Origin: Candidatus Krumholzibacteriota bacterium
Lineage (GTDB): Bacteria > Krumholzibacteriota > Krumholzibacteriia > JAJRXK01
Assembly (NCBI GenBank): GCA_029262065.1
Contig: JAJDAC010000014.1
Span: 248,001-312,000, forward strand
DNA: 64,000 bases
Direction: 5' to 3'
Made by a program: the position numbers and the translations under genes. A model generated the notes under the pieces. That model saw nothing but the letters and a program-made list of their open reading frames with translations. It had not been told where the DNA came from and ran no database searches. Of the stretch, positions 27,984-31,811 are shown piece after piece (the stretch's first letter is position 1; the number at the start of each line of letters is the position of its first letter).

Positions 27984-28841
27984 ATGTATGAAGTAGAGCG
28001 AAGCCCTGATCGGCGACAAGATCAGGCGCTACAACATTATCTCAAAGTCATCGGCCGCTACCCCTTGCTCACCAAGGAGCAGGAGTTCGACCTGGCGCGT
28101 CGCATTCGCAAGGGTGACGACCCGGCCCTCGAGAAACTGGTGTACTCGAACTTGCGGTTCGTGGTCAGCGTGGCCAAGCGCTACGTGGGTCACGGCCTGA
28201 GCTTCCTGGACCTGATTGCCGAGGGCAACGTCGGACTGATCACCGCGGCCCACCGATTCGACGAGCGGCGTAACTTCCGTTTCATCAGCTACGCGGTTTG
28301 GTGGATCCGGCAGGCCATCCAGAAGGCGTTGGCCGAGCAAACGCACACCGTGCGGCTGCCGATCAATCGGGCCCAGCAGGCTCAGAAGCTGCGCAAGATC
28401 AACAACCGGCTCGAGCAGGAGCGCGGTGGTTCGATCCACGAAGAAGATCTGGCCAAGCAGCTCGACATCACCGTGAGCAAGCTCAACGAGATCAACGCCG
28501 TGCTTCGGCCACTGTTGTCGCTGGATGAGAGTGTTCACGACGACGACAGTCAGCCGCTGCAGGAGATCCTGGCGAATCCCGATGAGGAGACGCCCGAGGA
28601 CAGCTTCGTGCAAGGCGAGCTGCACGAGCAATTGGTGAGTGCCATGGACAAACTCACCGATCGCGAAAAGGACATCGTCGTGCGGTACTACGGGCTTGGG
28701 GGCGAGGAAAGCACCTCGCTCGAGGCCATCGGCGAAGACATCAACCTTTCGCGCGAGCGTGTGCGGCAGATCCGGAACGACGCGTTGCGCAAGATGCGCC
28801 ATGCGGTGGCCGGAGCCAACCTGGCCGATTACCTGTCGTAG
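27984..28841 (+). CDS. rpoD: RNA polymerase sigma-70 factor, RpoD/SigA type, short form
   Basis: This 285-residue sigma factor has region 1.2 (LKVIGRYPLLTKEQEFDLARRIRKGD), region 2 (NLRFVVSVAKRYVGHGLSFLDLIAEGNVGLITAAHRFD and FRFISYAVWWIRQAIQKALAEQ), regions 3.0-3.1, and region 4 (LTDREKDIVVRYYGLGGEE, then LSRERVRQIRNDALRKMR). Region 1.1 and the non-conserved insert are absent. That size is typical of the primary sigma factor of Bacteroidetes and relatives, but also of group 2 sigma factors elsewhere, so the essential role is inferred. ATG 27984 follows GGAGG by 10 nt. It is a single gene between terminators. Confidence 0.9.
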   Translation: MYEVERSPDRRQDQALQHYLKVIGRYPLLTKEQEFDLARRIRKGDDPALEKLVYSNLRFVVSVAKRYVGHGLSFLDLIAEGNVGLITAAHRFDERRNFRFISYAVWWIRQAIQKALAEQTHTVRLPINRAQQAQKLRKINNRLEQERGGSIHEEDLAKQLDITVSKLNEINAVLRPLLSLDESVHDDDSQPLQEILANPDEETPEDSFVQGELHEQLVSAMDKLTDREKDIVVRYYGLGGEESTSLEAIGEDINLSRERVRQIRNDALRKMRHAVAGANLADYLS

Positions 28842-29584: not shown

Positions 29585-29612
29585 TTGACACCCCAGCGGC
29601 CACGATTAAAGT
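29585..29612 (+). promoter_or_regulatory. tRNA-Val promoter
   Basis: Perfect TTGACA (29585-29590), a 16 bp spacer and TAAAGT (29607-29612). The geometry matches the tRNA-Gly promoter, and the start would lie about 6 nt before the tRNA. Confidence 0.6.
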
Positions 29613-29624
29613 AGTAGGTTCCGT

Positions 29625-29701
29625 GGGCGATTAGCTCAGTTGGTTAGAGCGCTTGCTCGACACGCAAGAGGTCACTGGTTCGAATCCAGTATCGCCCACC
29701 A
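29625..29701 (+). tRNA. tRNA-Val (GAC) with C at position 33
   Basis: A complete 77 nt cloverleaf: acceptor GGGCGAT pairs ATCGCCC, the D arm has GCTCAGTTGG, the anticodon stem CTTGC/GCAAG is intact, the T arm GGTTCGAATCC and CCA are encoded. The seven-base anticodon loop is TCGACAC, which places GAC at 29659-29661 but C instead of the near-universal T at position 33 (29658). A CT to TC swap relative to the usual loop CTGACAC explains it; this may be real or an assembly error. Confidence 0.88.
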
Positions 29702-29796: not shown

Positions 29797-29810
29797 ACCA
29801 GGCAGACGCG

Positions 29811-29831
29811 GCGGGTTCCACCCGCTTTTTT
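29811..29831 (+). terminator. rho-independent terminator upstream of thrS
   Basis: GCGGGT-TCC-ACCCGC followed by six T. It lies 110 bp after tRNA-Val and 55 bp before the thrS ATG, so it either ends the tRNA transcript or acts as a thrS attenuator. Confidence 0.8.
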
Positions 29832-29885: not shown

Positions 29886-31811
29886 ATGGCGCCAGACAAT
29901 GTGACCCTCACCCTCCCCGATGGATCGCAAAAAGAACTGCCACGCGGCACGACGGTCCGGGGCGCTATCGAAGCGATTGGGCCCGGTCTGCTCAGGGCCG
30001 CCGTGGCCGCTCGGCTAGACGGCGAGTGGGAGCCATTTGATCTGCCGCTCGAAAGCGATGGGCGGCTCGAGGTGGTCACGCGAAACCAACCCGACGCGCT
30101 CTACGTCCTGCGTCACTCAACCGCGCATCTCATGGCCTACGCCATCCAGGAGTTGTATCCCGACGCGCGTTTCGGTTTCGGACCGCCGGTTGAAAACGGT
30201 TTCTACTACGACATCCTGATCGACGAGCCGTTCACCGATGAAGACCTGGAGAAGATAGAGAAGCGAATGCGCGAGTTGGCCAAGCAGGGTCACGCCATCG
30301 TGCGCGAAGAGTTGAGTCGCGAGGAAGCGCAGACCCGCTTCGAAGGACAGCACCTGAAGCAGGAGCAAGCGTCGGACCTTGGTGACGCGCAGTTGTTCTC
30401 CTACCACATGGGCAACTTCGAAGACCTGTGTGAAGGGCCGCACCTGCCCAACACCAAGGAGATCAAGGCATTCAAGCTGATGACCGTGGCCGGCGCCTAC
30501 TGGCGCGGCGACGAGTCGCGCGAACAGCTGCAACGAATCTACGGTACCAGCTGGTTCTCCAAGAAAGATCTCGACGAGCACCTGCATCGACTGGAAGAGG
30601 CCAAGAAGCGCGACCACCGCAAGCTGGGTCGCGAGTTGGACCTGTTTGGCATGCAGGAAGACGCTGGCGGGGGCCTGGCGTTCTACTATCCCAAGGGGTC
30701 GATGCTACGCAACGTGCTGATCGACTTCTGGAAGGATCAGCATCAGCGCGGCGGGTACGAGCTCGTCGACACGCCGCACATCAGCAAGGGCGACCTCTGG
30801 CGCACCTCGGGTCACATGGAGTTCTACAAGGACAACATGTACCTGTTCGAAATCGAGGGGCAGGAGTACGTGGTGAAGCCCATGAACTGTCCGGGGCATG
30901 TACTCATCTACAAGCGTCGGATGTGGAGCTACCGCGAGCTGCCGGCACGGTACGCCGAGCTGGGCACCGTGTATCGTTACGAACGCAGTGGCACGTTGCA
31001 CGGGATGCTTCGCGTGCGCGGGTTTACCCAGGATGACGCGCACATCTTCTGTCGTCCCGATCAGGTCGAGGATGAAATCGTCGGTGTGCTGCAATTGCTG
31101 CGATCGATTCTCACCGCCTGCGGATTCGATTCGTACGAGGTTGAACTGTCCGTGCGTGATTCGCAGAACAAGGAAAAGTACGCGGGCAGCGACGAGGAAT
31201 GGGACCACGCCGAGAACTCGCTCATCCGCGCCATGGATCGCGAAGGTTTGAGCTACACCCGGATGGAGGGTGAGGCCGTGTTCTACGGACCGAAAATCGA
31301 CGTGAAACTGGTGGATGCCCTCGGCCGCCGTTGGCAGACCAGCACGGTCCAGTTCGATTTCAATCTGCCGCGCCGCTTTGGCGTGGAGTACGTGACGGCC
31401 GGTGGCGAACGCCAGAACGCCTACATGGTGCACCGCGCCATCTATGGATCGCTCGAGCGTTTCACGGGCATGCTGGTGGAACACTACGCGGGCACGTTTC
31501 CCGCCTGGATGGCCCCGGTTCAGGCTGCGGTGTTGCCGGTGGGCGACGATTTCGTGGACTACGCCCAGGATGTCAGACGCCAGCTGCTGGCGACCGGACT
31601 GAGGGTCGAGGCCGACCTGCGCGAAGAGAAGATCGGACGCAAGATCCGCGAGGCGGAACTCCAGAAAACGCCCTACATGCTGGTGGTGGGGGCGCGCGAG
31701 ATGGAGGCGGGCACCGTGACGGTGCGCCGACACGGCGGCGAAGATCTGGGGGCGAAGACGGTCGCTGACTTTGCGGCGCAGTTGCTTGACGAGGTCGCCA
31801 GCAAGCGTTAG
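29886..31811 (+). CDS. thrS: threonyl-tRNA synthetase
   Basis: The 641-residue class II synthetase has an N-terminal TGS domain (residues 1-65) and the editing domain with HSTAH near residue 77 and CEGPH near 183. The catalytic core has MNCPGH, RGFTQDDAHIF and VHRAIYGSLER, supplying the zinc ligands Cys and two His, and the C-terminal anticodon-binding domain starts near residue 540. It charges tRNA-Thr. AGAGGA precedes ATG 29886. It heads the conserved thrS-infC-rpmI-rplT-pheST block, though a leader terminator separates it from infC. Confidence 0.98.
   Translation: MAPDNVTLTLPDGSQKELPRGTTVRGAIEAIGPGLLRAAVAARLDGEWEPFDLPLESDGRLEVVTRNQPDALYVLRHSTAHLMAYAIQELYPDARFGFGPPVENGFYYDILIDEPFTDEDLEKIEKRMRELAKQGHAIVREELSREEAQTRFEGQHLKQEQASDLGDAQLFSYHMGNFEDLCEGPHLPNTKEIKAFKLMTVAGAYWRGDESREQLQRIYGTSWFSKKDLDEHLHRLEEAKKRDHRKLGRELDLFGMQEDAGGGLAFYYPKGSMLRNVLIDFWKDQHQRGGYELVDTPHISKGDLWRTSGHMEFYKDNMYLFEIEGQEYVVKPMNCPGHVLIYKRRMWSYRELPARYAELGTVYRYERSGTLHGMLRVRGFTQDDAHIFCRPDQVEDEIVGVLQLLRSILTACGFDSYEVELSVRDSQNKEKYAGSDEEWDHAENSLIRAMDREGLSYTRMEGEAVFYGPKIDVKLVDALGRRWQTSTVQFDFNLPRRFGVEYVTAGGERQNAYMVHRAIYGSLERFTGMLVEHYAGTFPAWMAPVQAAVLPVGDDFVDYAQDVRRQLLATGLRVEADLREEKIGRKIREAELQKTPYMLVVGAREMEAGTVTVRRHGGEDLGAKTVADFAAQLLDEVASKR

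Follow-up and report, generated by a model that had tools for sequence, protein, structure and literature searches.

Uridine at position 33 of the anticodon loop is described as highly conserved, or as the residue present in almost all tRNAs, in passages of PMC9023262 and PMC3664417. A tRNA-Val(GAC) gene in the stretch of DNA analysed here (the window, 64,000 nucleotides) carries a cytosine at this position, which raises the question whether the gene contains a sequencing error, is a pseudogene, or encodes a working tRNA with a natural variant of the loop. The last reading is preferred: judged from its sequence, and with a probability of about 0.6, the gene would be a working tRNA-Val(GAC) that decodes GUC and GUU with a natural C33 loop. 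From the comparisons given below, the C33 residue itself is most likely a real, recurrent natural variant and not a sequencing error.

The tRNA-Val(GAC) gene and its genome

The gene was located by ARAGORN at 29625-29701 of the forward strand, with an encoded 3′ CCA (29699-29701), and scores 71.8 bits against Rfam family RF00005, of which the cut-off is 29. No unpaired helix position was flagged, in agreement with the initial annotation, in which all other arms had been called intact. Nucleotides 27-43 make up the anticodon arm (29652-29668, forward strand; CTTGC-TCGACAC-GCAAG), a 7-nucleotide loop with the anticodon GAC (29659-29661; expected codons GUC and GUU) on a stem of five pairs, as in a tRNA-Val(GAC). 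The loop reads U32-C33-GAC-A37-C38, with U32 at 29657, C33 at 29658, A37 at 29662 and C38 at 29663. The C33 that had been noticed in this arm was recovered by direct reading, by ARAGORN and by Rfam; it replaces the near-universal U33 and sets the gene apart from a canonical elongator tRNA. A73, A35 and C36, which are valine identity elements, can all be read from the sequence. The anticodon arm occurs once in the window when up to three mismatches are allowed.

The good promoter that had been proposed corresponds to a promoter-like site of the sigma-70 type, TTGACA-16-TAAAGT (29585-29612, forward strand), which matches 10 of 12 positions; shuffles of a 501-base region gave a mean of 0.1 such sites. 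An exact TTGACA within 50 bases 5′ of the tRNA gene is present in 15 of 20 genomes inspected from the window's taxonomic class, its own included, and the remainder of the leaders differs among these 20 genomes. A pseudogene was rejected on sequence grounds: the helices are intact, a promoter-like site is present and the C33 form is kept in relatives. Between the tRNA gene and the start of thrS lies a terminator-like hairpin with a T run (29810-29826), which may mark the end of the tRNA transcript or be part of the thrS leader.

The source genome is a draft of 5.77 Mb in 59 contigs, 95.6% complete, with 44 Rfam tRNA matches and, according to ARAGORN, 43 distinct tRNAs. U33 is found in 42 of these 43, the exception being tRNA-Val(GAC). 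The valine set consists of one tRNA each with the anticodons UAC, CAC and GAC (ARAGORN); of the valine tRNAs found, the one in the window alone has G34 in its anticodon. A search for a second tRNA-Val(GAC) had been proposed in the initial annotation; none was found among the 44 Rfam matches or the 43 distinct tRNAs, which in a draft of 59 contigs and 95.6% completeness is no proof of absence. The codons expected for this tRNA are well used, as GUC (77) and GUU (16) together account for 93 of the 241 valine codons in six genes of the window (2827 codons). The 44th Rfam match is a tRNA fragment (L187, 1-121; C6:29850-29970 of the same genome) that has its first 49 bases in common with the genome's tRNA-Arg(UCU) and diverges thereafter, and that may have been left by an integrated element.

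C33 and U33 in related genomes

The class was surveyed in 80 genomes, using one sequence pattern for each state at position 33 and a combined pattern. The C33 pattern was found in 25 genomes and the U33 pattern in 41; no genome had both and 14 had neither, the combined pattern matching 66. In a similarity search of 58 genomes, including the source genome, every one had a tRNA match, though the tRNA matched was not in each case tRNA-Val(GAC). Comparison with tRNA-Val of close relatives, which had been suggested as a check, revealed that C33 recurs: next to its presence in 25 of the 80 class genomes, a genome of a different genus in the same family (G002) has a tRNA identical to that of the window over 77 of 77 bases, C33 included. 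G002 and the U33 genome G003 belong to one genus and are adjacent on the first tree described below.

All 25 C33 class genomes have C at position 38, as in the window. Among the 41 U33 genomes, position 38 is U in 19 (loop TTGACAT) and G in 22 (loop TTGACAG). The loop CTGACAC, regarded in the initial annotation as the normal form, is not the norm here: it was present in none of the 66 class genomes with a tRNA-Val(GAC) match. As the U33 relatives have TTGACAT or TTGACAG and none has CTGACAC, the variant is best seen as a T-to-C change at position 33 with T32 kept, and not as a swap of CT to TC. The U33 tRNAs of G003 and G057 are identical over their 77 bases, the two genomes belonging to different families. 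Replacement of the whole tRNA at the switches was inspected in 20 of the 66 genomes; the tRNAs are too alike for inheritance to be separated from transfer, which holds also for the identity between G003 and G057.

In the window, the tRNA gene is preceded by a gene for a sigma-70-family factor (labelled RpoH; 27984-28841, forward strand; Pfam sigma-70 regions 1.2, 2, 3 and 4) and followed by thrS, specifying threonyl-tRNA synthetase (29886-31811, forward strand; Pfam). In tblastn searches of the 2 to 14 kb fetched around each tRNA, the sigma gene was detected in 37 and thrS in 59 of the 66 class genomes, so that 64 have at least one of them; 32 have the two together, 27 have thrS without the sigma gene and 5 the sigma gene without thrS. 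Neither was detected on the fetched stretch of G004 and G033. When the loci were cut at about 1.5 kb on each side, thrS was seen to start shortly after the tRNA in C33 and U33 genomes alike, and in some class genomes the opposite flank of the tRNA has dnaK where others have the sigma gene. Orthology of the window's tRNA to the tRNA-Val(GAC) of its relatives is indicated by the identity with G002 (77/77), the pattern matches (66 of 80) and the neighbours (64 of 66). By these comparisons, the C33 and U33 genes of the class are to be regarded as two states of one locus. G002 seems to lack thrS at the position it normally occupies: none was found on the 8.3-kb contig concerned (L188, G002:C38), on which the frames 3′ of the tRNA resemble, by eye, infC, rpmI, rplT and pheS.

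A first tree was made from two proteins, the products of thrS and the sigma gene, of 63 genomes; G004, G025 and G033 were excluded, having too little sequence. It required six changes at position 33, five of them forced by starred branches. The thrS hit of G008 is very divergent (end branch 2.66) and may be another protein. A second tree with G008 removed (62 genomes; LG+G4, no mixture) also gave six changes (bootstrap range 6-6). Positions 33 and 38 differ jointly in six of six independent pairs on this second tree (p 0.031) and in five of five on the first tree, in which the long branch of G008 was kept (p 0.0625). Whole clades are uniform in one state or the other.

Occurrence in other phyla and coupling with position 38

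Scanning the GTDB species genomes with a pattern for the bacterial form of C33 tRNA-Val(GAC) yielded at least 118 stretches. ARAGORN identified one tRNA-Val(GAC) with C33 in each of the 118 matches listed; a further 51 tRNAs lie on these stretches, and every one has U33. According to their titles, the 80 matches listed with a title represent Planctomycetota, Bacteroidota, Cyanobacteria, Campylobacterota, Pseudomonadota, Actinomycetota, Spirochaetota, Aquificota and others; at least one GTDB match (L107) falls in the window's own class. Cultured species with the C33 form include Paludisphaera soli, Nocardiopsis alkaliphila and Neptuniibacter pectenicola. Since the pattern required C33 in front of GAC, the scan reveals breadth and not frequency. 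Fifteen of the GTDB C33 genomes were searched whole with the combined pattern, and all 16 matches obtained were C33.

Frequencies were obtained in six groups, named after the titles of their entry genomes, among the genomes matched by the combined pattern, which is strict and leaves many genomes unmatched. C33 was present in 62 of 105 matched genomes of Planctomycetota (149 searched), 17 of 41 of Actinomycetota (119 searched), 5 of 94 of Campylobacterota (101 searched; counted by eye), 3 of 92 of Bacteroidota (138 searched), 1 of 48 of Pseudomonadota (140 searched) and 25 of 66 of the window's class (80 searched). Every group was entered via a known C33 genome, the class via the window, and thus holds one C33 genome by construction; with the entry genome removed, the counts are 0 of 47 for Pseudomonadota and 2 of 91 for Bacteroidota. 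None of the genomes in the six groups matched both C33 and U33. Two C33 tRNA-Val(GAC) matches with different anticodon stems, both with the loop TCGACAA, occur in a planctomycete genome (G123:C219 and G123:C267), and the genome that holds L131, of Nocardiopsis alkaliphila, has two C33 matches (G083:C129 and G083:C162) that are identical over the 40-base pattern.

Pooling of the six groups gave 115 C33 and 342 U33 matches, the class being counted once per genome. A38 was accompanied by C33 in 47 of 49 pooled matches, which are related by kinship, whereas U38 went with U33 in 226 of 232 and G38 with U33 in all 33, 22 of which are from the window's class. C38 was found with either state (62 C33, 81 U33). 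Fisher tests were extreme for A38, with p-values that are not to be taken at face value as the rows are related. The loop TTGACA is retained in 327 of the 342 U33 matches, and CTGACAC occurs in 10 matches, 8 from Actinomycetota and 2 from Bacteroidota, with none from the class. By these counts and by the independent pairs in the class, positions 33 and 38 of tRNA-Val(GAC) are coupled. The bacterial tRNA probably exists in two interchangeable states, one with U33 and usually U38, G38 or C38, the other with C33 and usually A38 or C38.

Possible roles of C33 and comparison with other tRNAs

According to passages of PMC5372741, a cross-loop bond between U33 and residue 37 could form, which is blocked by the modification of residue 37 in tRNAs for codons starting with U or A, while in tRNAs with G36 or C36 residue 37 is either modified or not. 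Parts of PMC5372741 and PMC9023292 also describe a bond that links the 2′-OH of residue 33 with N7 of residue 35, if this is a purine; according to the former, the bond stabilises the U-turn. Since tRNA-Val(GAC) has both C36 and A35, it may do without a bulky modification at position 37, and the 2′-OH bond would be possible with any base at position 33. The contact with the purine A35 would thus be independent of base 33, the amino group of cytosine 33 may replace the contact of U33 to phosphate 36, and a loop with C33 would still make its U-turn. In addition, C33 would be unable to pair with A37, which in C36 tRNAs need not be modified, so that the loop may stay open where a U32-A38 pair could otherwise collapse it. 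In a passage of PMC9654439, t6A is stated to block U33-A37 pairing and C33 is listed among the anti-determinants of t6A synthesis; the latter role should be irrelevant for an anticodon that ends in C.

Folding of the isolated arm is consistent with loop opening in the forms that have A38: if U32 is present as well, the predicted probability of a 33-37 pair is 0.67 for U33 and 0 for C33. With the C38 loop of the window, the values are 0.017 and 0, a near-zero effect in the model, and loop opening was therefore rejected as the cause in the window's own copy and kept for A38 forms only. Pairing is also predicted for U33 with G38 (0.56), and yet this combination is frequent, making up 33 of the 342 pooled U33 matches. 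Likewise, tRNA-Gly(GCC), tRNA-Gly(CCC) and tRNA-Ala(CGC) of the source genome retain U33 together with U32, A37 and A38, an equally pairable loop. For C33 with G38, a combination absent from the pooled matches, a C33-G38 pair is predicted at 0.33. In this model, loop opening would be a partial account, and the C33-C38 coupling in the class is beyond its reach. We tentatively consider a rule for bacterial tRNA-Val(GAC) by which C is allowed in place of U33 when, and partly because, position 38 is A (or C), C33 substituting for a modification of position 37 in preventing cross-loop pairing; as formulated here, the rule is doubtful. In the C38 form of the window, C33 is best regarded as a state that is either tolerated or serves fine-tuning, and that is tied to position 38.

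Several other explanations of C33 deserve consideration. A sequencing or assembly error at 29657-29658 could be suspected in a draft of 59 contigs. It is extremely improbable in view of the identical C33 tRNA in another genus, the C33 genes in 25 of the 80 class genomes and the at least 118 GTDB stretches in many phyla, of which the 80 listed by title come from many separately named assemblies. Near-neutral drift, in which U and C exchange freely because the U-turn hardly needs U33 when A35 is present, would fit the repeated switching (six changes among 62 genomes), the whole clades in one state or the other and the presence of C38 with both states across the groups (62 C33, 81 U33). However, drift predicts that positions 33 and 38 vary independently, which does not agree with their joint difference in all six independent pairs or with the near-restriction of A38 to C33 and of G38 to U33; nor does it fit with the fact that, in the source genome, C33 is seen in tRNA-Val(GAC) alone. 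It is a possible but unlikely explanation. The same low standing is given to the idea that C33 and the 32-38 pair jointly tune the strength of the loop so as to make decoding uniform or more accurate: the coupling of 33 with 38 and a passage in PMC5372741 speak for it, but it offers no reason why this isoacceptor alone should need tuning.

Two further proposals are far less probable. The U33 loop UUGACA is, in DNA, the -35 hexamer TTGACA, a likeness peculiar to tRNA-Val(GAC) with T32 and T33 as read from the sequence, and C33 (TCGACA) could have served to remove an internal -35 box. This is hard to reconcile with the retention of TTGACA in 327 of the 342 U33 matches, and a change of T32 to C would abolish the hexamer equally well. 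A deaminase that edited the transcript from C33 to U33 would bring the gene in line with the U33 rule; we know of no editing of C33 in bacteria. PF00383 matches, a count in which tRNA deaminases are mixed with others, were not in excess, with a mean of 2.76 in 25 C33 genomes and 3.21 in 39 U33 genomes (Mann-Whitney p 0.064), and editing is very improbable. A working tRNA with a natural C33 loop is the reading kept here. One published result counts against it: in the part of PMC3664417 concerned, U33C and U33A in yeast tRNA-Gln, and not U33G, caused a phenotype, which its authors interpret, in a preliminary way, as pointing to poorer decoding.

No description of C33 in bacterial tRNA-Val(GAC) was found in the open-access literature searched, which does not imply its absence from print. 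Sequences of this kind must be present in tRNA collections drawn from genomes. What makes C33 of interest is its recurrence, its restriction to one isoacceptor in the source genome and its coupling with position 38, more than the single gene. A bacterial isoacceptor that is repeatedly without U33 provides matched natural pairs of U33 and C33 tRNAs, which could be used to probe what U33 contributes to the U-turn, to decoding accuracy and to modification. A tRNA-Val(GAC) gene should not be labelled a pseudogene or an error for having C33 alone. If the rule linking 33 and 38 were true, U33 would be conserved elsewhere for reasons that tRNA-Val(GAC) escapes, making this tRNA a natural laboratory for U33 function.

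Natural tRNAs lacking U33 are described in passages of several papers. The tRNA-Cys(GCA) of Sulfolobales, with "an unusual C33", is like the window's tRNA an elongator tRNA of a whole clade, but it is archaeal and another isoacceptor, and its authors failed to isolate tRNA-Cys (PMC7668247). The eukaryotic initiator tRNA-Met is functional with C33, as the window's tRNA would be, but is an initiator and eukaryotic (PMC9023262). The tRNA-Ser(CAG) of CTG-clade yeasts is a natural non-U33 elongator, with G33, or C33 in Candida tropicalis; unlike the tRNA studied here, it is from yeast and is tied to codon reassignment and charging (PMC8645108). Close, too, is the bacterial tRNA-Val(GAC) with the loop UUGACAU, which has the same anticodon, the same fold and, within the class, the same neighbours as the window's tRNA, and combines U33 with U38 where the latter has C33 with C38.
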